Below are positions 2,842 to 46,344 of a DNA stretch of 64,000 nucleotides, in pieces. The DNA lies in the NCBI GenBank assembly GCA_947593615.1, contig CANQDR010000007.1, positions 1 to 64,000 on the forward strand, read 5' to 3'. The DNA is from an uncultured Clostridia bacterium. GTDB lineage: Bacteria > Bacillota > Clostridia > Oscillospirales > Acutalibacteraceae. Position 1 is the stretch's first letter, and every line of letters starts with the position of its first letter. Below the pieces are notes generated by a model. That model saw only the letters and a list, made by a program, of their open reading frames with translations, searched no databases and was not told the origin of the DNA. Position numbers and translations under genes: made by a program.

Positions 2842-5337
2842 ATGAAAAAAATACTCAAATCAGCAGCAGCGTTTCTTTCAGTAATTGTATTGTTAACAGT
2901 TTTATCACCATCATTACTTACTGTTAATGCTGCGCAAAAAGATGAAACATTCGTTTTAAATGATTTTGAATTTATTTTAACAAATACGAATACTACATCA
3001 ATTCTTTCCTACAAGGGTACTTCTGCCGATATTGAAATTCCGTCAATTATTGGAGGAAGAACAGTAGTTACAATTGGTGAAAATGCTTTTAACGAGAACG
3101 AATATGTTAGAAGCATAAAAGTTCCGTCTTCGGTTACGACAATAGAAAACGGTGCTTTTTCTAATTCTCCGAATTTGGAAAGAGTGTCTTTCTCTGACGG
3201 ATTAATCACAATCGGCGACAACGCATTTGCAAACAGTGAAAAGTTATTTGAAATTGTTATTCCCGATACCGTAGTAAATTTAGGGGAAAACATATTCAGC
3301 AACACAGCTTGGTATAACTGTCAGCCTGACGGTATAATTTATATCGGAACAACAGCTTATGAATTTAAAGGCAGCCCTGCTGAGGACGGCATTGTAAGAA
3401 TAAAAGACGGCACTAAAGTTATACCGAAAAAAGTATTCTATCAGAATTCAGAGATAAAAACGGTCTACATTCCTGATAGTGTCACGCAATTAGATGATTA
3501 CGTTTTTGCTGAATGTACAAACCTTGAAAAAGTTTATTATGGTAGTGGTATTTCAAAAGTCCCTAATTATGCTTTTAGCGGTTGTATTTCTCTTAAATCA
3601 ATAGATTTACCTGAAACAATTACTGAAATAGGCAACTATTCTTTTTTGGGGTGTGAAAGCGTTAAAACGTTGGAAATACCTGAGCAAATTACAAGTATTG
3701 GCATGCAGGCTTTTAAGGACTGTAAAGGTATTGAAACAGTAAATTACAATGCAATAAACAGTAAAAACTCCATTACAAGCACATTTAAATGGTTTTTTTC
3801 ATGGGATAAAGAAAATTTTCCTAAAGGCAGAAACCGTGTAACAATAGCTGATGAAGATTATACTGTCTATTTGCACTATTCGCCTATGTTTGAAGGATGT
3901 GATTCTTTTAAAATATTGAATATAGGTAAAAATGTAAAAAGAATTTATGACTATACTTTTGTTGATTGTAAGTCACTCGAAACTGTTAATTACAATGCAT
4001 TGGATTGTACTGAAATGAGATCGGCTCATCATTATACCATTTATTATTATTATGGTAATTATAGCAAAAAAAACAGTTATACAACAACTGATTCAAATTT
4101 TCTCGGATGTGATTCTCTTACAACTATAAATATTGGAGAAGATGTTAAGAGTATTACTGAATATTCTTTTGCGGACTGCGAAAATCTAAAAACGGTTAAT
4201 TTTAATGCTGAAATGTGTACGATTGCAGGAGCGACAATTGATTCTGCATTTGGTGACTGCATAAATCTTACTGATGTAAACATAGGAGAAAAAGTACAAT
4301 CTATTACAGGAAATCCGTTTTTATATTGTCCTTCTCTTGAAAGATTTAATGTTGATGAATCAAACCAATATTTAACAAGCGTAGATGGTGCGCTATTAAG
4401 TAAAAATGAAAGAATTCTTTTTATTTGTCCAAACAATGCGGACAGCTACACTTTACCAAAAAAAGTTACAGAAATTAAAAATTACGCCTTTTGGGGCTGC
4501 GGCAATTTAAATGCACTTGATGTTGCAGAAGGAAATATAAATTATAAATCAGAAGACAATGCAATTTTATCTATTAACGGCTTCCATCTTATTACAGCCG
4601 CCCTTGCACAAGATAATTATACAATTCCTGAAAGTGTGAAGTATATTGACTCATATGCGTTTTTTAATAGAACAAAGCTAAAGGAAATAACATTCCCAGA
4701 CGAGTTAAGAAAAATTGGTAACCGTGCTTTTCAGAAATGTAATCATTTAACGTCCATAACAATTCCTGATAAAGTAATAACTATTGAGGATGCTGCATTT
4801 GCAAATTGTTCAAACATAACAGAAGCTGATATTGGTAACGGTTTATCTGTAGTACCGGATTCAATGTTTTTTAAATGTAATAATTTAAAAACAGTAAATC
4901 TTGGTGAAAGAGTTACTACTATTAATGTTCATGCTTTCTATCAGTGTACTTCTCTTGACTATATTTATGTTCCGGGCAGTGTAACTTCAATAGATACAAA
5001 CGCTTTCAGAGAGTGTAAATACTTCTCGTTCTATGCATATGATAATACTTATGCTCAAACGTACGCAAATTCAAAAGATATTATTGATTTTGTATCACTC
5101 GGTGAATATGTACCTGTGGAACTTCCTGACATTACTGATGTAACTTTGGGAGATGTCGATGGTGATGAAGTAATAACCGTAAAAGACGCAACATTACTGC
5201 AAAAATATATTGCTGAGCTAAGCTCATTGGATGATGAACAATTGGAAGCTGCTGATACTAACAAGGATAAAGTAGTCAATATTTTAGACGTGACTTTAAT
5301 CCAAAAATACGCAGCTAGTATTATAGATTCATTCTAA
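2842..5337 (+). CDS. Secreted leucine-rich-repeat (BspA-type) protein with C-terminal dockerin
   Basis: Secreted protein of 831 residues. Residues 1-31 are a signal peptide (lysine start, hydrophobic core, ending VNAA). Residues about 35-750 are many BspA/LRR_5-type repeats of the form 'I.IP..V..I...AF..C..L..V', a fold known for surface adhesion and protein binding. Residues about 765-828 are a type I-like dockerin with two calcium-loop repeats (DVDGDEVITVKDATLLQKY and DTNKDKVVNILDVTLIQKY). It should therefore be displayed through a cohesin on a scaffoldin or the cell surface. AAAGGAGG precedes the ATG. It is monocistronic between its own promoter and a terminator. No catalytic domain is seen, so binding or adhesion is the likely role; the ligand is unknown. 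Confidence 0.9.
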   Translation: MKKILKSAAAFLSVIVLLTVLSPSLLTVNAAQKDETFVLNDFEFILTNTNTTSILSYKGTSADIEIPSIIGGRTVVTIGENAFNENEYVRSIKVPSSVTTIENGAFSNSPNLERVSFSDGLITIGDNAFANSEKLFEIVIPDTVVNLGENIFSNTAWYNCQPDGIIYIGTTAYEFKGSPAEDGIVRIKDGTKVIPKKVFYQNSEIKTVYIPDSVTQLDDYVFAECTNLEKVYYGSGISKVPNYAFSGCISLKSIDLPETITEIGNYSFLGCESVKTLEIPEQITSIGMQAFKDCKGIETVNYNAINSKNSITSTFKWFFSWDKENFPKGRNRVTIADEDYTVYLHYSPMFEGCDSFKILNIGKNVKRIYDYTFVDCKSLETVNYNALDCTEMRSAHHYTIYYYYGNYSKKNSYTTTDSNFLGCDSLTTINIGEDVKSITEYSFADCENLKTVNFNAEMCTIAGATIDSAFGDCINLTDVNIGEKVQSITGNPFLYCPSLERFNVDESNQYLTSVDGALLSKNERILFICPNNADSYTLPKKVTEIKNYAFWGCGNLNALDVAEGNINYKSEDNAILSINGFHLITAALAQDNYTIPESVKYIDSYAFFNRTKLKEITFPDELRKIGNRAFQKCNHLTSITIPDKVITIEDAAFANCSNITEADIGNGLSVVPDSMFFKCNNLKTVNLGERVTTINVHAFYQCTSLDYIYVPGSVTSIDTNAFRECKYFSFYAYDNTYAQTYANSKDIIDFVSLGEYVPVELPDITDVTLGDVDGDEVITVKDATLLQKYIAELSSLDDEQLEAADTNKDKVVNILDVTLIQKYAASIIDSF

Positions 5338-36837: not shown

Positions 36838-36864
36838 AGAGGGCATATAAATGCCCTCTTTTAA
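36838..36864. terminator. Bidirectional terminator between scfB and feoB
   Basis: 9-bp stem AAGAGGGCAT / ATGCCCTCTT with A/T tails on both sides. Confidence 0.85.
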
Positions 36865-38771
36865 AATATACGCATAATGTTAGCTGTAATCATACAAAGA
36901 ATAATGCCCATTACAGTAGGAAGCGCCATTGAAATTAAAGTCCATTTCAAACTGCCTGTTTCTTTTTTTATCGTTAAACAAGTTGTAGAGCAGGGAAAAT
37001 GCATTATACACATAATCATTGTACAAACGGCAGTTACCACTGTCCATCCGTTAGCAGAGAAAAGCTGAAAAAGCTGTTCATAACTTGTATATTCAACAAG
37101 CGTACCGCTTGCCATATACGACATAATTATAATCGGTATGACAGTTTCATTTGCAGGAAATCCGAGGATGAATGCCATTACAATTACACCGTCAAGTCCG
37201 ATAAATTGACCAAATGGATTTAAAAACTCTGTGCAGTACGCAAGAATAGAAGTATTACCGATGTTAATATTCGCCAACAGCCAAATAACCGCTCCCGCAG
37301 GTGCTGCTACTACAACGGCTCTTCCCAAAACAAACAGAGTTCTGTCAAGCAGTGAACGAACTATGGTTTTAATAATTTGCGGCTTTCTGTAGGGAGGAAG
37401 TTCAAGTGCAAAACCCGACGCTTCTCCCTTTGCAATTGTCAAAGACAAAAGTTTTGACACCCCTAAAGTCACCAGAACACAAAGCACAATTATTCCCAAC
37501 AGTATAGCGGCAACCGTAAGTGATGAAAAAATTCCGAATGTGCTTCCTGCAAAAAACATCATTATTATTGCAATTAAAATAGGAAACCTTCCGTTGCAAG
37601 GCATAAAGTTATTTGTAAGTATTGCAATAAGGCGTTCCTGCGGAGATTCTATTATTCTGCATCCGGTTACTCCGCATGCATTACAGCCTATTCCCATTGC
37701 CATAGTAAGACTTTGTTTACCGTGCGCTCCGCACCCTGAAAAGAACTTATCAAGATTAAATGCAATTCTCGGCAGATAGCCTGAATCCTCAATAATTGAA
37801 AACAACGGGAAGAAAATTGCCATTGGCGGAAGCATTACCGATACAACCCAAGTAAGAGTTGTATATACTCCGTCAATTAAAAGTCCGGTAATAAAACTTG
37901 GTACACTTAACAGCTCAAATAAATCGTATAGATTGGATTTTATGAAATCGAACAGAATACTCAGCCATTCGCTCGGATAATTCGCTCCAACGGCTGTAAT
38001 CCAGAAAAGCATGCCGAACAGCAGCAGCATTATCGGAATCCCTGTTGCCTTTGATGTAAGTATTTTATCAACTTTCTTGACTCTCTCGTTAAGCGCCATA
38101 CAGTTATACGTTACGCAATCATTACATATTTTTTTAGTCTTTTCTGCAAGTGTTTCAATATTGTTTTTATGATGTTCATTGTCCAGAACATCAACACCTT
38201 CAAAATTTCTTGACACTCTAAAGCAATTTTTCTTGCCCATACATACATCATAAACAACACTTTTAAGTTCTTTCAGTCCTTTTCTTTTTGATGCACAGGT
38301 GCAGACAACCGGTATTCCGAGATTTAGAGAAAGCTCATCTTTATCAATGCAAATACCGTTTTTTTCTGCTTCGTCGCATAAATTAAGGCACAGTACGGCA
38401 TTTTTTTGAATAGACAATACCTGTAATGCAAATGAGAGATTTCTTTCAATGACATTTGAATCAATTACTATTATTACGCAGTCAGTTTTATTATTTGCAA
38501 GAAATCCCTTTGCGACCGCCTCTTCTTTTGAAAACGACAGCATGGAGTATGTTCCGGGAAGGTCGGTAATTAAAAAACTTTTATCTTTGATTTTAGCTTT
38601 GCCCGAAGAACATTCAACGGTTTTTCCCGTCCAGTTTCCTGTGTGTTGTTTTAAACCTGTCAGGGCGTTGAATATCGTACTTTTTCCTACATTTGGGTTA
38701 CCAGCTAAAGCTATATTAAAGTCTGTATCCAAGCCAATTTTATTACTTGTGACCGAATTTCTTGCAAACAA
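36861..38771 (-). CDS. feoB: Ferrous iron transporter FeoB
   Basis: 636-residue membrane iron(II) transporter. The N-terminal G domain shows GNPNVGKST (G1), LPGTYSM (G3) and NLCDE (G4). The core follows with two Gate domains (GCNACGVTGCRI and the second half), each with several helices. The start is TTG at 38771 with GGGAGG 8 nt upstream. At 636 residues it is shorter than E. coli FeoB but complete from G domain to the last helix. feoA lies 20 bp upstream on the same strand. No Fur box was identified with confidence. Confidence 0.93.
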   Translation of the reverse strand: MFARNSVTSNKIGLDTDFNIALAGNPNVGKSTIFNALTGLKQHTGNWTGKTVECSSGKAKIKDKSFLITDLPGTYSMLSFSKEEAVAKGFLANNKTDCVIIVIDSNVIERNLSFALQVLSIQKNAVLCLNLCDEAEKNGICIDKDELSLNLGIPVVCTCASKRKGLKELKSVVYDVCMGKKNCFRVSRNFEGVDVLDNEHHKNNIETLAEKTKKICNDCVTYNCMALNERVKKVDKILTSKATGIPIMLLLFGMLFWITAVGANYPSEWLSILFDFIKSNLYDLFELLSVPSFITGLLIDGVYTTLTWVVSVMLPPMAIFFPLFSIIEDSGYLPRIAFNLDKFFSGCGAHGKQSLTMAMGIGCNACGVTGCRIIESPQERLIAILTNNFMPCNGRFPILIAIIMMFFAGSTFGIFSSLTVAAILLGIIVLCVLVTLGVSKLLSLTIAKGEASGFALELPPYRKPQIIKTIVRSLLDRTLFVLGRAVVVAAPAGAVIWLLANINIGNTSILAYCTEFLNPFGQFIGLDGVIVMAFILGFPANETVIPIIIMSYMASGTLVEYTSYEQLFQLFSANGWTVVTAVCTMIMCIMHFPCSTTCLTIKKETGSLKWTLISMALPTVMGIILCMITANIMRIF

Positions 38772-38791
38772 TAAAAATACCTCCCGATTAT

Positions 38792-39028
38792 TTATAGAGG
38801 AGTAACGGTAATTTTTTGACAGTCTTTATTTCTTAATGCTACAATTGCGTTTTTTATCAGATAGGCCGTAGGGTCGCCAAACGGACTTCTATATATGGGA
38901 GTAATTATTGAATCTTTTATAATCCCCAGGTCAAAAACCCTGTTAATAAGATTTTCTTTGCAATCAACCGAATTTACAATTGCGCTTTTATCAAGAGGTA
39001 AATTATTAAGCGTGCATTTTTCTTCCAT
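38792..39028 (-). CDS. feoA: Ferrous iron transport accessory protein FeoA
   Basis: SH3-like domain protein of 78 residues, starting at the ATG at 39028 (the track uses a TTG at 39046). The FeoA pattern is seen: TLNNLPLDKSAIV, NRVFDLGIIKDSIITPIYRSPFGDPTAYLIKN. FeoA stimulates FeoB-mediated iron uptake. It precedes feoB by 20 bp in a two-gene operon. Confidence 0.9.
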   Translation of the reverse strand: MEEKCTLNNLPLDKSAIVNSVDCKENLINRVFDLGIIKDSIITPIYRSPFGDPTAYLIKNAIVALRNKDCQKITVTPL

Positions 39029-39107
39029 CTTCTTCACCGATTTCAACTTTTTATTAGTATATTATTCATATCCGCAAATTCAGTGACTTAAAAATAGCTG
39101 TCTTTAC

Positions 39108-39136
39108 TTGACATAAAATGACAAAGATACTATAAT
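39108..39136 (+). promoter_or_regulatory. Consensus promoter of the B12 capture/import operon
   Basis: TTGACA and TATAAT match consensus exactly, 17 bp apart. It fires into the cobalamin-riboswitch-like leader and diverges from feoAB. Confidence 0.9.
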
Positions 39137-39154
39137 ACAGAAAATTCAATATAC

Positions 39155-39400
39155 AGAAACTGCGGTTCGAACAGATATTTCTTAGTAGGCAATTGGGAAT
39201 TCGGTCAGAATCCGAAACAACCGTCATTACTGTGTTTGGCAAATGCCATAAGTCAGATCACTCCCGCTTTTTCTTGGATTTTGCATTCTTGGACGAAGAA
39301 GAAGTGCTGCCGATTATAACTGTTGCTTTGATTTATTTCATTGCGGCATTAATCTGCTGTGCTTTCCTTTTCGGAAAGCATTTTTTATTTGCTTTCAAAA
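39155..39400 (+). promoter_or_regulatory. Cobalamin riboswitch-like leader with intrinsic terminator
   Basis: The leader of about 280 nt shows core elements of the adenosylcobalamin class in order. GGGAAT (39195), a small stem TTCGG / CCGAA (39200-39215), AACCGTCATTACTGTG (39219-39234, the conserved CCGCCACTGTG-like block) and AAGTCAGATCACTCCCGC (39250-39267, a diverged B12 box). Downstream, GCTTTCC / GGAAAGC followed by ATTTTTTATTT (39361-39392) is an intrinsic terminator just before the first gene. The layout fits an OFF switch that stops transcription when cobalamin is bound. The call rests on motif recognition; covariance scoring was not possible. Confidence 0.75.
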
Positions 39401-39421: not shown

Positions 39422-40411
39422 ATGAAAAAAACAATTAAAAAATTTTTGTCAATGACAATTGCCGTTGCAATTGTCATCGGAGTAATGTCAATAGCAACGG
39501 TTGCAAGTGCAAGTGAAACGGACAGTGTACGTGTAATAGTACGCAATGACGTTTACTCTGTTGAGGACGGCGCAGCGTGGGACGGCGTGCTTATTGATGA
39601 GTGGGTTGATATTGACGAAAATTCATCTATGATGTCTGCTGTAGTTGACGCACTTGATAATCACGGTTATACACAGAGCGGTGCAGAAAACAGCTATATT
39701 GAAGAGATAAACGGTCTTGCTGCATTTGATTCAACTCCTTCCAGCGGTTGGACAGGTACTATTAACGACTGGTTTACAAATGAAGCATATAGTGAATTTA
39801 CTGTTGCATCGGGCAAGCTTGAAGACGGTGACGAAATTTGTATTATGTACACCAATACGTACGGAGAAGATGTTGGCAGCTTATGGGACAACAATGAAAC
39901 AACTCTTAAAGATTTAAGCTTCAGCAATGGTACATTATCATCAGATTTTGAGCCGTCAGTTACCGAGTATACGCTAACACTTGACAGCAATGCTACAAGC
40001 ATTATGGTAACTCCGACTGCTACAAACAAAAATTATCAGGTAAGAACATACAAGAATGAATATACTCCCGATGCTGAGGATACGGAGTATAAAAGAAATG
40101 ACTTAATTGAAGTTGCCGACGGAGATAAAATAATCATAGGAGTAGGCGACTCTAATTGGCCATCAATGAATCAAACAGACGGCGGTACAGTTTACACGAT
40201 CAATGTTAAGATAGAAAGTGATGTATTGCTCGGCGATGTTAATCATGACAACTATATTGATGTAAAGGATGCAACATCAATTCAAAAATTCCTTGTTGGA
40301 TTGGAAAGATTTTCAGATGTGCAAATTGCAAACGCAGATTATAATAAAGATGGATTTGTTTCTGTTTTAGATGCAACTGCAATTCAAAAATATATAGTCG
40401 GAATAGAGTGA
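39422..40411 (+). CDS. Secreted DUF4430 (transcobalamin C-terminal-like) protein with dockerin
   Basis: 329 residues from the ATG at 39422, preceded by ACGGAGG. Signal peptide 1-31 (…ATVASA). Residues about 34-155 are a DUF4430 domain: SYIEEINGLA, then SSGWTGTINDWF and LEDGDEICIMY are its hallmarks. DUF4430 is known to be related to the C-terminal beta domain of animal transcobalamin and intrinsic factor. Residues about 162-262 match a cadherin-like beta-sandwich (LKDLSFSNGTLSSDFEPSVTEYTL). Residues about 268-328 are a dockerin with two calcium loops. First gene after the riboswitch. I infer a scaffold-attached corrinoid-binding half-module; binding is unproven. Confidence 0.82.
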   Translation: MKKTIKKFLSMTIAVAIVIGVMSIATVASASETDSVRVIVRNDVYSVEDGAAWDGVLIDEWVDIDENSSMMSAVVDALDNHGYTQSGAENSYIEEINGLAAFDSTPSSGWTGTINDWFTNEAYSEFTVASGKLEDGDEICIMYTNTYGEDVGSLWDNNETTLKDLSFSNGTLSSDFEPSVTEYTLTLDSNATSIMVTPTATNKNYQVRTYKNEYTPDAEDTEYKRNDLIEVADGDKIIIGVGDSNWPSMNQTDGGTVYTINVKIESDVLLGDVNHDNYIDVKDATSIQKFLVGLERFSDVQIANADYNKDGFVSVLDATAIQKYIVGIE

Positions 40412-40415
40412 TAAT

Positions 40416-40655
40416 ATGCAAGATGATAAAATTCTGCTTGCAATAAAACTACTGTCAGATATGGCAGAAAATCTCGGCAGAAATCCTAAGCGAACTGATT
40501 TTGACAGTGAAACAGCCTGTTTTATTAAGCAAAAATTAGGTCCTTGGCCGCGTGCACTTGAAAAAGCAGGATTAAAAAATGCACCTGAAATTTCTTCAAA
40601 AGAAAAATCAAAGCAAAAAAGAGAAAGAATCAGAAATAAAAATAAGAACAAATAA
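40416..40655 (+). CDS. Small basic HNH-repeat-like protein
   Basis: 79 residues, cytoplasmic. The middle segment LGRNPKRTDFDSETACFI with KLGPWPRALEKAGL resembles the short helical repeat found beside HNH/homing endonucleases and in some DNA-binding proteins. The C-terminus is a run of Lys/Arg/Asn. There is no nuclease motif. It starts 4 bp after the first dockerin gene and ends 22 bp before the next, so it belongs to the operon. A DNA- or RNA-binding regulatory role is possible; no known function fits B12 uptake. Confidence 0.6.
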   Translation: MQDDKILLAIKLLSDMAENLGRNPKRTDFDSETACFIKQKLGPWPRALEKAGLKNAPEISSKEKSKQKRERIRNKNKNK

Positions 40656-40677
40656 AATTATAAAAAGAGGTATAGTT

Positions 40678-41853
40678 ATGAACAAAACAGTAAAAAGAAT
40701 AACTGCACTTTCATTAATACTGATTATGAGCATATGCAGTATTATGTCAGTTAATGCTGCAACTGATGATGAACTGCTTTCAAAGTATGATGAAACAACA
40801 AATTACTTATCATCACTTGAAACACCGTCAGTAAGCTCAATCGGCGGCGAGTGGATGATTATCGGACTTGCAAGAGCTGAAAAAATCAGTGATGATTTTG
40901 TAAATGGATACTATGAAAACGTAGTAAATTATGTTTCTTCAAATGGCTCTGCAAAACTGCACAGAGCAAAATCCACTGAGAATTCAAGAGTAATTATTGC
41001 TCTTACATCAATAGGTAAAGACGTCACAGATGTGGCAGGCTATAATTTGCTTGAACCTCTTGCAGACTTTAATTACTTAGAAAAACAGGGAATAAACGGT
41101 CCTATTTGGGCGCTTATTGCTTTTGATTCTCTTAATTATGAAATTCCTGTTGACAGCAATGCATCTGTTCAGACAACAAGAGGGGCGCTTGTTGAATATA
41201 TTCTTAACGCACATATAGAAAACGGCGGCTGGTCATTAACAGGTTTAAATACAGACCCTGATATGACAGGTATGGCTATTCAGGCACTTGCACCTTACTA
41301 TGACACAAACGATTATGTAAAATCAGCTGTTGATGAAGCGCTTTCCGCTTTATCTGATATTCAAGATGAAAACGGAGGTTTTGCTTCTTGGGGATCTGTG
41401 AATGCCGAAAGCTGTGCACAGGTTATAACTGCGCTTACAAGCCTTGGCGTCAATCCTCAGACAGACGAACGTTTTATTAAAAACGGCAACACATTAATTG
41501 ACGCTCTTATGTCATTCGGCGTTGAGAACGGCTTCGCTCATATTGCAAATAGCAGCTACAATCAGATGGCGACTGAACAAGCATACTATTCACTTGTTTC
41601 ATATTACAGACTTGTAGATAATAAAACCTCGCTTTATGATATGAGTGATTTACTTAATACTCCAAAGAAACCAAACGACATTAACGGTGACGGCGTTGTA
41701 AATATTGTTGACTGTACTTGTATTCAGAAATACCTTGTTGATTTGGAAGAATTCAGCGAAAATCAGATTACGGATGCAGATTACAACGGTGACGGAATAG
41801 TAGACATTATTGACGCTACATCAATTCAGAAATATTTGGTAGGCATTATTTAA
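40678..41853 (+). CDS. Secreted alpha/alpha-barrel (transcobalamin alpha-domain-like) protein with dockerin
   Basis: 391 residues from the ATG at 40678 with AGAGG upstream; the track start at 40579 overlaps the previous gene. Signal peptide 1-28. Residues about 30-320 are helical repeats of the terpenoid cyclase/prenyltransferase fold: GEWMIIGLARA, GPIWALIAFDSLNY, ENGGWSL then DPDMTGMAIQALAPYY, ENGGFASWGS. The alpha6-alpha6 barrel of intrinsic factor and transcobalamin has this fold. Cyclase catalysis is unlikely: the protein is exported and lacks a full DxDD acid motif. A dockerin (about 333-390) ends it. I infer it supplies the alpha half of a corrinoid-binding pair. Confidence 0.82.
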   Translation: MNKTVKRITALSLILIMSICSIMSVNAATDDELLSKYDETTNYLSSLETPSVSSIGGEWMIIGLARAEKISDDFVNGYYENVVNYVSSNGSAKLHRAKSTENSRVIIALTSIGKDVTDVAGYNLLEPLADFNYLEKQGINGPIWALIAFDSLNYEIPVDSNASVQTTRGALVEYILNAHIENGGWSLTGLNTDPDMTGMAIQALAPYYDTNDYVKSAVDEALSALSDIQDENGGFASWGSVNAESCAQVITALTSLGVNPQTDERFIKNGNTLIDALMSFGVENGFAHIANSSYNQMATEQAYYSLVSYYRLVDNKTSLYDMSDLLNTPKKPNDINGDGVVNIVDCTCIQKYLVDLEEFSENQITDADYNGDGIVDIIDATSIQKYLVGII

Positions 41854-41857
41854 AATT

Positions 41858-42778
41858 ATGAAAGATTTATTAAAAAAATATAAATTAATTTTATTATCCG
41901 CTGTTGTTGCTGTTGCTGTTCTTGTTATTGCATTTTTTGCGGGGGGAACATTATCTGATAATACGAAAACAGTTGTTTCCCCATCAGCTTCAACTGCGGA
42001 TACAGCAAATTACACTGAGGCCGAAACTGTTTCCGAAACGGTTGCTGAAACAACTTCTTCTGATAATAAAACTGAGAAAAACGAAGAAAAAAATAAAGAT
42101 AAAAAGTCTGAGTCCAAAACAGATTCTTCTCAGACTCAAAAGAGCACAAATGCGGTTGTAAAAAGTGCAGAGCAAAGCTCAAATACAGCCGTATCAGGCT
42201 CTGATAAATCGTTAGTTAAAGCCGATAAAACTTCTTCCCGTCTAAATCAATCGTCGAACAGCACGGGAAATAAAGGACAAAAAGATAAGTATCTGACTGA
42301 CCCGATACCCGAGGGAAAGCCAAAGCCTGTAGAACCTCAGGAACAGGAAACTAAAAACAATAAAATCACCTGTACTTTTTCAATTTCGTGCAGTACAATT
42401 TTAGACAATATTAAAGATCTTGATCCTCCTGATAAAATTGAACTTGTACCAAACGACGGTTGGATATTAAAACCGACTAAAGTTGAATTTAAAGAGGGAG
42501 AATCTGTTTTTGATGTTTTGCAGCGTGTATGTAAAGAAAATAACATTCATATGGAATTTTCCTTTACGCCGATTTATAACTCCGCTTATATTGAGGGAAT
42601 AAACAACCTTTATGAATTTGATTGCGGAAGTAATTCAGGCTGGATGTACAGTGTAAATGACTGGTTTCCAAATTACGGTTGTTCCCGTTATGTATTGCAG
42701 GACGGGGATGTAGTCGAATGGAAATACACCTGCGATCTCGGCATTGATATTGGCGGTAGCAATGCAATAGGATATTAA
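41858..42778 (+). CDS. Membrane-anchored DUF4430 protein
   Basis: 306 residues. One N-terminal membrane helix (about 10-30) anchors the protein facing out. A Ser/Thr/Lys-rich, probably extended linker spans about 32-165. Residues about 168-306 are a DUF4430 domain: ESVFDVLQRVCKENNI, SAYIEGINNLYEF, SGWMYSVNDWFPNYGCSRY, LQDGDVVEWKY. It has no dockerin. Six cysteines occur in the domain, possibly disulfides. The start is 4 bp after the preceding stop with little RBS, suggesting coupling, and EcfT follows after 9 bp. I infer it docks or hands over the corrinoid to the ECF transporter. Confidence 0.82.
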   Translation: MKDLLKKYKLILLSAVVAVAVLVIAFFAGGTLSDNTKTVVSPSASTADTANYTEAETVSETVAETTSSDNKTEKNEEKNKDKKSESKTDSSQTQKSTNAVVKSAEQSSNTAVSGSDKSLVKADKTSSRLNQSSNSTGNKGQKDKYLTDPIPEGKPKPVEPQEQETKNNKITCTFSISCSTILDNIKDLDPPDKIELVPNDGWILKPTKVEFKEGESVFDVLQRVCKENNIHMEFSFTPIYNSAYIEGINNLYEFDCGSNSGWMYSVNDWFPNYGCSRYVLQDGDVVEWKYTCDLGIDIGGSNAIGY

Positions 42779-42787
42779 GGACTTGTT

Positions 42788-43678
42788 ATGAAAGACACAT
42801 TTTCACAAATGCACCCAATTGTAAATTTTATATATTTTGTATTTGTAATCGCATTTTCAATGTTTTTGATGAATCCCGTCTGCCTTGCAATTTCTCTTGT
42901 ATGTGCTTTGATAAATGCGGTTTATTTAAACGGTTATAAAACAGTAAAACTAAGTTTAAAATATTTGCTGCCTATGATTATTTTAATTACGGTGATTAAT
43001 CCTGTTTTTAACCACGAAGGAGTGACAATTCTTACATATTTTTCATGGGGTAATCCGCTTACCCTTGAATCAATTGTATATGGAATTGCAGCCGCAGTAC
43101 TATTGGCGTCAGTAGTACTGTGGTTTTCGTGCTTCAATGCTGTTATGACGTCAGATAAATTTATCTATCTGTTCGGCAGAATTATACCGTCTTTAAGTCT
43201 TATATTGTCGATGTCACTACGATTTATCCCCAAGTTTACATCTCATTTCAGGGAAGTGCGCAATACACAAAGATGTATCGGCAGAGATATTTCCGACGGT
43301 TCAATTTTTACAAGAATTAAAAACGGTGTAAAACAACTGTCAATTATGATTTCTTGGGCAATGGAAAATGCAATTGAAACTGCTGATTCTATGAAAAGCA
43401 GGGGATACGGATTAAAAGGTAGAACTGCATTTTCAATTTACAGATTTGACAAACGTGACGGCATTGTTCTTAGTTTAATACTGTCCGCAGGACTGTTAAT
43501 CGGTCTATCGATTTTTTTTGAGTTAGTAAAATTCAGATATTTTCCGTCAATAAAAGGTGATTTATTTAACTTTTCATCGGCTTTGGTTTACATTTTATAT
43601 GCGTTGTTGATGCTTATACCGTTTATATTAAATATCAAGGAGGAACTGAAATGGAAGCGTTTAAGGTCATCAATCTGA
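42788..43678 (+). CDS. ecfT: ECF transporter transmembrane component EcfT
   Basis: 296-residue integral membrane protein with five to seven hydrophobic segments. The cytoplasmic coupling helices carry ADSMKSRGYGLKGRT, the family Ala/Ser-Arg-Gly motif that contacts the ATPases, and an earlier MSLRFIPKFTSHFREVRNTQR stretch. ECF T components join the ATPases to a substrate-binding S component. The ATPase/S gene starts within its last 28 nt. With the riboswitch and DUF4430 genes, a corrinoid substrate is the best inference. Confidence 0.92.
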   Translation: MKDTFSQMHPIVNFIYFVFVIAFSMFLMNPVCLAISLVCALINAVYLNGYKTVKLSLKYLLPMIILITVINPVFNHEGVTILTYFSWGNPLTLESIVYGIAAAVLLASVVLWFSCFNAVMTSDKFIYLFGRIIPSLSLILSMSLRFIPKFTSHFREVRNTQRCIGRDISDGSIFTRIKNGVKQLSIMISWAMENAIETADSMKSRGYGLKGRTAFSIYRFDKRDGIVLSLILSAGLLIGLSIFFELVKFRYFPSIKGDLFNFSSALVYILYALLMLIPFILNIKEELKWKRLRSSI

Positions 43679-46326
43679 CTTTCAGATATCCCGAAACGGG
43701 AATAGATGTGCTTAAAAATATATCCTTTTCGATAAAACGCGGAGAATTTATAACGCTCTGCGGTCCTTCGGGATGCGGTAAAAGCACTCTTTTACGTCAG
43801 CTTAAACCCGTTCTTGCACCACACGGCGTAAAGTCAGGAGAAATTTTATTTTTTAATAAAGATATAAATGAACTGTCTTTGCGTGAGCAAAGCCAGAAAA
43901 TCGGATATGTACTGCAATCTCCCGACAATCAGATAGTCACCGATAAGGTCTGGCATGAGCTTGCTTTTGGACTTGAAAGTCTTGGATATGATAACGAAAC
44001 AATCCGCAGAAGAGTTGCAGAAACCGCAAGTTTTTTCGGAATTCACAACTGGTTTGATAAAAGCGTCACAGAGCTTTCGGGAGGACAAAAGCAAATTCTT
44101 AATCTTGCTTCTGTTATGGCTATGCAGCCCGAAGTGCTTATTCTGGATGAACCTACAAGCCAACTCGATCCGATTGCAGCTGCTGATTTTCTCGCCTGCA
44201 TTTCAAAAATCAACCGTGAACTCGGCACAACGATCTTAATTACCGAGCACAGACTTGACGAAGTGCTTCCTCAAAGCAATCGTGTTCTTGTCATTGAAAA
44301 CGGTGTAATCGTATCATATGATACACCTGTAAATACGGGTAAAAATCTTAAAAGCTGCGGCAGTAAATCATTTTTATCACTTCCTGCGCCAATGAGGATT
44401 TGGGAATCCGTATGCAGTGACGAATCAAATTGTCCGATAACTGCCGCACAGGGCAGAGAATGGCTTGAAAATTATTCTAAAAGCCACAAACTCTATGAAC
44501 TTTATCCCGAAAGGATTCCTGAACACAGTAACAAAGTTGCTGTACGGCTGAAAAATGTCTGGTTCAGGTATGAAAAAAATTCTCCCGATATTGTTAAGGG
44601 ACTTTCTCTTAACGCTTATCAAGGAGAATTTGTTGCCGTTCTCGGCGGAAACGGTACAGGAAAAACTACTATGCTGTCACTTATCAGCGGTATTAATAAG
44701 CCGTATAGGGGAGAAGTTAAGCTTACTGATTATCATAGCAATGAAAGTGATATAAAAACTGCCGTACTTCCGCAAAATCCTCAAAATTTATTTGTAAAGA
44801 AAACTGTTCTTGAAGATTTAAAAGAAGTATTTGACGGCAGAAAAATTGATACAGATGAAAAAAACAGACGTTTAAATGATGCAGTATCGCTGTGTCGGCT
44901 TGAAAAGTTTCTTAACAGCCACCCCTATGATTTATCAGGAGGCGAGCAACAGCGAGCCGCTCTTGCAAAGGTGTTGCTTTTGCGGCCTGAAATTTTGCTT
45001 CTTGACGAGCCTACAAAGGGACTTGACTCAGAATTTAAAATTGTTTTTGCAGATATAGTAAAATCACTCACAGACACAGGCGTAACAGTAATTATGGTAA
45101 GTCACGATATAGAATTCTGTGCCCGATTTGCTCATCGGTGTGTTATGCTGTTTAACGGAGAGATTGTATCTCAGGGTACTCCCAGAGAATTTTTTGCCTC
45201 CAACAGCTTTTATGTTACTTCTTCAAACAGAATGTCTAAAAATATTATAGAGAATGCAGTCACTGCTGAAGACGTAATCTATTGCTGTACGGGAAAAACA
45301 AGTAATGATGATAGTTTAACTGTTAAAACTAAGCTTTATGATAACAGGCTTTATTTTGAAAATAAGAATATCATTAAAGACAAAAATAAAAAACTGCCTA
45401 AATGGAAATGCGTTCTCGGTGCATTTTCAGCATTGCTTTTGATTTTCAGCATTTTTATAAACCTTGATTATTTAAGTTTTTTTAATTCAAAAACTTTGCC
45501 GCTTTGGGGTAATTTTATTTTAGTTGCAACACCTGTTATTTTGCTAATGATTTCTTTTGGTTCAAAATCCAAGCGTTCAATTGATGAAATAAGAATGGAT
45601 AAATCAAACCGCAAAATACCCAAGAGAACCATTGCCGCAGCTATAATAATATTATTCGCCGTGCCACTTACAATTTTTGTTGGTGTTACATATCTTCAGG
45701 ACCAAAAATATCTTTTTATATCACTGCTTGTAGTGATTGAGTGTATGCTTCCTTTCTTTATGATTTTTGAGGGCAAAAAACCGCAGGCGAGAGAGCTGAT
45801 AATAATTGCCGTGCTTTGTGCAATTGCCATATCAAGCAGAGCAATTTTTTCTATGCTGCCACAGTTTAAGCCGGTAATTGCACTTGTTATCATTTCAGGA
45901 GTTGCCTTCGGCGGTGAAACCGGTTTTCTTGTTGGCGCAGTAACAATGCTTGTGTCAAATGTTTTGTTCAGTCAGGGAGTATGGACTCCATGGCAGATGT
46001 TTGCAGCAGGCATAATAGGATTTATTTCTGGAATATTGTTTAAAAAGGGACTTTTAAGCCGCAACAGAGCCGCTCTTTGTACATTTGGCTTTTTTATTAC
46101 AATAATAGTGTATGGCGGAATTATGAATTTTTCATCTGCCGTTATGGCTCACGCAACTATAAATTTTGAAACATTACTTACGTTTTATCAGACAGGCTTT
46201 CCTATGGATATCGTACATGGTCTGTCAACTTTTGCTTTTCTTTACTTTGCCGCTGAGCCAATGCTTGAAAAACTCGACAGAGTTAAGGTAAAATACGGAT
46301 TAGTTAATGTAAAAGGGACTGCGTAA
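43651..46326 (+). CDS. Fused ECF ATPases (EcfA-EcfA') and S-component-like membrane domain
   Basis: 891 residues in one chain. ABC domain 1: Walker A GPSGCGKST (38-46), LSGGQKQ (142-148), LILDEPTSQLD (163-173). ABC domain 2: Walker A GGNGTGKTT (332-340), LSGGEQQR (428-435), LLLDEPTKGLD (449-459). From about 600 to 885 is a membrane domain: two or three extra helices, then RELIIIAVLCAIAISSRA, LPQFKPVIALVIISGVAFGG and WTPWQMFAAGIIGFISG. This resembles ECF S components of the predicted cobalamin (CbrT) type. AAGGAGG precedes the ATG inside ecfT. ATPase-S fusions make a dedicated rather than shared-module transporter. Confidence 0.88.
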   Translation: MEAFKVINLTFRYPETGIDVLKNISFSIKRGEFITLCGPSGCGKSTLLRQLKPVLAPHGVKSGEILFFNKDINELSLREQSQKIGYVLQSPDNQIVTDKVWHELAFGLESLGYDNETIRRRVAETASFFGIHNWFDKSVTELSGGQKQILNLASVMAMQPEVLILDEPTSQLDPIAAADFLACISKINRELGTTILITEHRLDEVLPQSNRVLVIENGVIVSYDTPVNTGKNLKSCGSKSFLSLPAPMRIWESVCSDESNCPITAAQGREWLENYSKSHKLYELYPERIPEHSNKVAVRLKNVWFRYEKNSPDIVKGLSLNAYQGEFVAVLGGNGTGKTTMLSLISGINKPYRGEVKLTDYHSNESDIKTAVLPQNPQNLFVKKTVLEDLKEVFDGRKIDTDEKNRRLNDAVSLCRLEKFLNSHPYDLSGGEQQRAALAKVLLLRPEILLLDEPTKGLDSEFKIVFADIVKSLTDTGVTVIMVSHDIEFCARFAHRCVMLFNGEIVSQGTPREFFASNSFYVTSSNRMSKNIIENAVTAEDVIYCCTGKTSNDDSLTVKTKLYDNRLYFENKNIIKDKNKKLPKWKCVLGAFSALLLIFSIFINLDYLSFFNSKTLPLWGNFILVATPVILLMISFGSKSKRSIDEIRMDKSNRKIPKRTIAAAIIILFAVPLTIFVGVTYLQDQKYLFISLLVVIECMLPFFMIFEGKKPQARELIIIAVLCAIAISSRAIFSMLPQFKPVIALVIISGVAFGGETGFLVGAVTMLVSNVLFSQGVWTPWQMFAAGIIGFISGILFKKGLLSRNRAALCTFGFFITIIVYGGIMNFSSAVMAHATINFETLLTFYQTGFPMDIVHGLSTFAFLYFAAEPMLEKLDRVKVKYGLVNVKGTA

Positions 46327-46344
46327 CAGTCCCTTATTTTTTTT
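46313..46344 (+). terminator. Intrinsic terminator of the B12 operon
   Basis: 9-bp stem AAGGGACTG / CAGTCCCTT then ATTTTTTTT. It overlaps the last codons of the fused ATPase gene. Confidence 0.92.

Follow-up and report, generated by a model that had tools for sequence, protein, structure and literature searches.

A riboswitch-associated operon for predicted corrinoid capture with dockerin-bearing transcobalamin-like proteins in a relative of Ruminococcus bromii

We analyzed a 64,000-nucleotide window from an uncultured Clostridia bacterium of the family Acutalibacteraceae (positions 1 to 64,000 of contig CANQDR010000007.1, assembly GCA_947593615.1). The window contains a five-gene operon encoding two secreted proteins with one dockerin each, open reading frame (ORF) A and ORF B, a membrane-tethered protein, ORF C, an EcfT coupling subunit, and a fusion of the EcfA, EcfA', and EcfS parts of an energy-coupling factor (ECF) transporter. 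As a whole, the locus is probably best explained as a riboswitch-controlled operon for corrinoid capture and import in a B12-auxotrophic relative of Ruminococcus bromii, with some of its products placed on amylosome scaffoldins. The strongest reading is that the extracellular pieces are held by a cohesin scaffold instead of by membrane anchors of their own. Cohesin-dockerin scaffolds have been studied as machines for polysaccharide breakdown, and R. bromii is a keystone species of the human gut that degrades starch.

In the mechanism that we propose, a cobalamin riboswitch would control the operon. The secreted alpha/alpha barrel (ORF B) and the DUF4430 beta-grasp piece (ORF A) would be held at the surface by their dockerins, bound in the cohesins of amylosome scaffoldins, and these dockerins would take over from the membrane anchor that many relatives have at the C terminus. 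Captured corrinoid would then pass to the membrane-tethered ORF C, and the CbrT-like S domain would receive it from there for import by the ECF transporter.

Operon, riboswitch, and transporter

The initial annotation of this locus covered positions 39422 to 42778. The three ORFs described there are present, but the unit is larger and extends over five genes from a promoter-like site (39108) to a terminator-like hairpin (46335) (Table 1). A GGAGG motif at about 39414 precedes the start codon of ORF A. Because about 270 bases separate ORF A from ORF B, we only infer that ORF A is co-transcribed with the remaining genes. Relatives of the operon were sought in 85,462 species genomes, and the 80 named loci (L numbers) obtained were annotated with profiles built in this analysis.

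An Rfam scan of the window at the gathering level gave no match. A permissive search placed the adenosylcobalamin model RF01482 at 39174-39312 with 32.8 bits (E = 0.0044), the gathering score being 50. We therefore rely on a covariance model, R1, built from six relatives with the window left out. It matched the window at 39146-39287 with 120.5 bits, and the next match in the window had an E-value of 0.16; R1 was calibrated briefly, which makes its E-values approximate, but the two matches are far apart. R1 also found one upstream site in 20 of 22 further relatives with dockerin-type operons, the contigs of the remaining two beginning inside the gene. Nine relatives have a gathering-level cobalamin riboswitch ahead of the operon (L071, L074, L075, L077, L078, L084, L096, L107, and L115), and the conserved cores of the window aptamer are common to those of L096, L107, and L115. 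By covariance-model match, the predicted aptamer belongs to the cobalamin riboswitch clan (RF00174/RF01482).

The transporter genes point to the same substrate. The only significant PDB match of the S domain was 6fnp_A, from the cobalamin ECF-CbrT complex, so that a CbrT-related S component is found together with EcfT and EcfA/A', the parts of an ECF-CbrT transporter. CbrT imports cobalamin and cobinamide (PMC5997447). The host genome, a 65-contig assembly that is 94% complete, was searched family by family, and all genome-wide statements below are the outcome of such searches. It encodes MetH, and its single TP_methylase (tetrapyrrole methylase) is RsmI, which implies that the corrin ring is not synthesized. 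Neither CobS nor a FecCD permease was found in these searches. This combination suggests a corrinoid auxotroph that lacks BtuCDF. Likewise, niacin is the one vitamin that R. bromii strains are predicted to produce (PMC5814915). Vitamin capture had been part of the initial annotation, and as sequence analysis predicts a riboswitch, a transporter of the ECF-CbrT kind, and an auxotrophic host, capture of B12 or another corrinoid by this operon is well supported.

These observations also bear on the idea that the dockered pieces serve the amylosome itself, in starch adhesion or glycan binding, and that the adjoining ECF transporter has a separate function. Dockerins are a hallmark of the amylosome (PMC5814915, PMC9112005), and many other dockerin proteins of this genome are starch, leucine-rich repeat (LRR), or other surface proteins. 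However, a single cobalamin riboswitch lies ahead of all five genes, as does a single strong promoter. Moreover, an EcfT gene adjoins the barrel and DUF4430 genes in 60 of the 80 relatives, with many of the others cut by contig ends, and does so in genomes without cohesins as well. We consider an amylosome function very unlikely.

Table 1. Predicted features of the operon (positions in the window)
Feature	Position	Strand	Evidence
Sigma-70 promoter-like site, TTGACA-17-TATAAT	39108..39136	+	12/12 consensus positions
Cobalamin riboswitch aptamer	about 39146..39312	+	RF01482 below gathering; R1 model E 4.8e-27
Candidate expression platform: terminator-like hairpin with U tract, after the aptamer and before the start codon of ORF A	39359..39381	+	
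ORF A, 329 aa: signal peptide, DUF4430 beta-grasp domain, cadherin-like domain, dockerin	39422..40411	+	
DUF4430 (transcobalamin C-terminal-type) domain of ORF A	39641..39853	+	35 bits, over cut-off
Type I dockerin of ORF A	40229..40396	+	E 1.6e-10 to 7e-10; calcium loops intact
ORF B, 391 aa: signal peptide, alpha/alpha barrel, dockerin	40678..41853	+	
Alpha/alpha barrel domain of ORF B	40762..41667	+	AlphaFold2 model
Type I dockerin of ORF B	41674..41838	+	E 9e-13 to 4e-12; calcium loops intact
ORF C, 306 aa: N-terminal membrane anchor, Ser/Lys-rich spacer, DUF4430, no dockerin	41858..42778	+	
DUF4430 domain of ORF C	42497..42730	+	78 bits, E 4e-21
EcfT (CbiQ family) transmembrane coupling subunit	42788..43678	+	PF02361 E 4e-9
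EcfA-EcfA'-EcfS fusion, 891 aa	43651..46326	+	TIGR04520 E 6e-110, PF07155 E 7e-9
S-component domain, CbrT-related	45790..46224	+	6fnp_A, E 7.6e-9
Terminator-like hairpin with T-rich tail, operon end	46313..46335	+	

Domains and predicted folds of ORFs A, B, and C

The initial annotation had described ORFs A and B as separate secreted proteins with a dockerin on each, and ORF C as a membrane-tethered beta-like domain without one. Pfam searches at curated cut-offs agree with this assignment and add a domain that had been overlooked. In ORF A, they matched DUF4430 at residues 74-144 (E = 4e-7), a Cadherin-like domain at residues 162-262, which was missing from the earlier description, and Dockerin_1 at residues 270-325. 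ORF B matched Dockerin_1 at residues 333-387. ORF C has a hydrophobic N-terminal segment and a Pfam match to DUF4430, and no dockerin was found in it. The DUF4430 domains of ORFs A and C are the only two in the genome. In the dockerins of ORFs A and B, both calcium-loop repeats are intact, as in the type I dockerins of cohesin-dockerin assemblies such as the amylosome, and the recognition pattern is of the DATxIQK type, as in most dockerins of this genome.

For the barrel, Pfam gave only a hint (SQHop_cyclase_C, E = 0.018). AlphaFold2, supplied with an alignment of 65 sequences (mean column identity of the 65 homologues, 52%), predicted an alpha/alpha barrel with a pLDDT of 96.2 and a pTM of 0.93. 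When this model was compared with known structures by Foldseek, rat transcobalamin with cobalamin (8ixt) ranked sixth (E = 1.4e-4), and more transcobalamin entries were found within the top 50. The modeled fold thus fits a transcobalamin role; it does not by itself identify the function.

Squalene-hopene cyclases and a farnesyltransferase were also among the best sequence and fold matches of the barrel, which would suit an enzyme of the type II terpene cyclase or prenyltransferase-like kind rather than a binding protein. However, the barrel protein is secreted, and its operon includes the cobalamin riboswitch and the CbrT-like ECF transporter. In addition, the DxDD motif of type II terpene cyclases is incomplete: the position reads D-P-D-M-T in the window, and the last Asp is missing in the aligned homologues (alignment A1). 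An enzymatic barrel is therefore most improbable.

Predicted dockerin tethering and its distribution

We found 39 dockerins in the host genome. Cohesins, whose presence had been proposed as a check on docking, number at least six. Four were identified by Pfam, in an Amy4-like amylase with the layout GH13-CBM26-cohesin-dockerin, two small proteins that each combine one cohesin with a C-terminal transmembrane (TM) segment, and one protein of 501 aa. The other two, at residues 332-462 and 768-886, lie on an orthologue of the surface scaffoldin Sca5, a neighboring 1040-aa protein with X25 modules (contig 28, L007:3812-6934) that matches the solved structures of Coh5 (7uvg, E = 1.5e-25), 7urp, and 7rpy. 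The Pfam cohesin model misses both of them, and Pfam-only counts consequently understate the scaffoldins of R. bromii relatives. The host thus encodes a cohesin-bearing surface scaffoldin on which a cohesin-dockerin assembly could be built.

Other dockerin proteins of this genome are diverse. In the window itself, a second dockerin gene (2842-5337, positive strand) encodes an 831-aa protein with BspA-type leucine-rich repeats, which resembles proteins listed for R. bromii that likewise join LRRs to a dockerin. Elsewhere in the host genome (G000), dockerins occur with CotH kinase, GH25 plus D-Ala-D-Ala carboxypeptidase, CHAP, subtilase, carbon-nitrogen hydrolase, and papain-like domains (L014, L021, L023, L031, L036, and L038).

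Three layouts, among others, recur in the 80 loci. In the first, DUF4430 and the barrel, with or without a cadherin-like domain between them, or the barrel alone, are followed by a C-terminal TM anchor. In the second, DUF4430, the cadherin-like domain, the barrel, and a dockerin form a single protein; this layout is found at the head of the corresponding operon in R. bromii strains ATCC 27255, 5AMG, and YE282, among others. The third, that of the window, consists of a DUF4430-cadherin-dockerin protein and a separate barrel-dockerin protein. Wherever the DUF4430-cadherin partner of a split locus is visible, which is the case in 14 loci, each half has its own dockerin (the window is counted, as is L095, which is broken into two frames). 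The membrane DUF4430 protein beside EcfT, in the layout of ORF C, is dockerin-free in 64 of 65 cases, and the exception (L131) looks like a partner of the ORF A type. The initial annotation had set the split in this bacterium against the single polypeptide of animals. Two dockered halves do occur here and in many relatives, but bacteria and animals do not differ in this way as a rule: most bacterial relatives, R. bromii included, have both domains on one polypeptide, usually with DUF4430 at the N terminus.

Several variants of these layouts were seen. In the closest relative (L091, barrel 93% identical), the DUF4430-cadherin pair of ORF A occurs as two tandem copies ahead of the dockerin (587 aa; L091:4895-6658). 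L083 (G019) has two adjacent barrel genes, one dockered and one TM-anchored, and L078 (G106) encodes a tandem barrel-barrel-dockerin protein; both loci are outside the tree sample. Doc6 and Doc8 ("DUF Doc") were considered as possible counterparts of the fused R. bromii protein, from which they differ in length.

Dockerin-type operons track cohesins across genomes. Cohesins were found in all 31 genomes with a dockerin-type operon versus 8 of 19 with other types (Fisher p = 2e-6; 50 relatives). Together with the cohesins of the host, this distribution supports the earlier proposal that the cohesin-dockerin system is used here for vitamin capture. Mapped on the barrel tree, the presence of a dockerin has to change about four times.

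How the dockerins would contribute is a separate matter. They may be an alternative to a membrane anchor and no more, each piece being tethered separately and docking having no part in forming the binding site. The corresponding proteins of many relatives end in a C-terminal TM segment, also when split (each half has its own in L090). The one polypeptide of R. bromii has one dockerin, as if one anchor per polypeptide were the rule, and two of the host cohesins sit on small single-cohesin TM proteins. On the other hand, the two-cohesin surface scaffoldin makes co-docking physically possible. We give separate tethering slightly less than an even chance; as it is a narrower form of the overall explanation, the two estimates overlap.

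That docking brings the halves together, as had been suggested in the initial annotation, is possible because this two-cohesin scaffoldin exists. In the specific form considered here, ORFs A and B would dock side by side on the Sca5 orthologue and form one corrinoid cleft, a calcium-dependent split receptor built by the scaffold beside the ECF transporter. We propose this form tentatively and regard it as rather doubtful.

Several findings weigh against the overall explanation, and in particular against assembly of the halves. Since the dockerins stand in for a C-terminal membrane anchor, their presence is accounted for by plain tethering at the surface, with no need for assembly, and dockerins on both halves are also expected if each secreted piece just needs an anchor, as in L090. 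The dockerins of ORFs A and B are not each other's closest match within the genome. The Fisher test ignores shared descent, although most of the 31 genomes with dockerin-type operons go back to a single ancestor; 29 barrel rows, the window included, form one dockerin clade with a support of 83. Farnesyltransferases/prenyltransferases and terpene cyclases share the barrel fold. The sequence profiles of the barrel and DUF4430 gave no significant transcobalamin match in Pfam or the PDB, so the link to animal transcobalamin rests on fold similarity and the published SLBB/DUF4430 assignment. A model of the fused R. bromii protein (pLDDT 90, pTM 0.74) had mixed fold matches (among them thioester domains, complement, and alpha-2-macroglobulin), and no domain interface could be read from it. 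Finally, absences from the incomplete host assembly are provisional.

The pieces might also be docked for the most part on cell-free scaffoldins and serve as secreted carriers of corrinoids instead of a surface receptor. R. bromii has the cell-free scaffoldins Sca3 and Sca4 (PMC5814915). However, ORF C is membrane-anchored and, like the ECF transporter, needs corrinoid to be delivered locally, the host genome encodes the surface scaffoldin Sca5, and the pieces stay membrane-anchored in many dockerin-free relatives. Secreted carriers are thus unlikely, and we favor capture at the cell surface.

A FeoB-like GTPase and a small FeoA-like ORF (36861-39046, negative strand) are divergent from the B12 operon and share the intergenic region of its promoter. 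FeoB-like and radical-SAM-like neighbors adjoin the operon also in L091, L115, and R. bromii ATCC 27255 (L093), in the last of which they lie upstream, as in the window; these three names were given from sequence appearance, with no profile behind them.

Comparison with known systems

Bacterial transcobalamin-like proteins combining a toroid with a beta-grasp (SLBB) domain were described by Burroughs et al. in 2007, together with paralogues and CbiO/CbiQ genes; B12 scavenging and possible surface complexes were proposed (PMC1796856). The window resembles those operons in its alpha/alpha toroid and DUF4430/SLBB domains on secreted or surface proteins, a linked second SLBB paralogue, CbiO/CbiQ-type transporter genes, and a host without B12 synthesis. 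It differs from them in its predicted dockerin tethering, two-dockerin split, CbrT-like S domain, and riboswitch. The main text of that paper does not mention dockerins or cohesins. Our literature search found no paper combining transcobalamin with dockerin and none assigning a dockerin protein to B12; papers naming dockerin, cobalamin, and cohesin together looked unrelated. Thus, predicted bacterial transcobalamin-like B12 scavenging beside CbiO/CbiQ has been known since 2007, whereas dockerin tethering and the two-dockerin split are new with respect to the literature searched.

DUF4430 was named for the C terminus of TCN (PMC4350170). Like animal transcobalamin, haptocorrin, and intrinsic factor, the system in the window pairs an alpha/alpha barrel with a DUF4430-type beta-grasp domain. 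The animal proteins are single soluble polypeptides with the barrel first, whereas the window has two polypeptides, a cadherin-like domain, and dockerins, and its fused relatives have DUF4430 first and the cadherin-like domain between. The match to the animal family is at the level of the fold and does not extend to sequence homology. The natural split and fused versions offer material for testing how a transcobalamin-type fold closes around B12.

The genome shares an Amy4-like protein and a Sca5 orthologue with the R. bromii amylosome (Sca1/Amy4 to Sca5), whose described cargo, unlike that proposed here, is starch-active or without an assigned role. If our interpretation is correct, the surface scaffold would be a wider docking board for nutrient acquisition, including vitamin capture, in R. 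bromii and its kin, and one R. bromii dockerin protein lacking an assignment would gain a suggested function. The transporter has an S component related to that of ECF-CbrT of Lactobacillus delbrueckii (6fnp), which imports cobalamin at the expense of ATP. In contrast to that system, the window fuses A, A', and S in one protein and adds extracellular candidate binding proteins to the operon.

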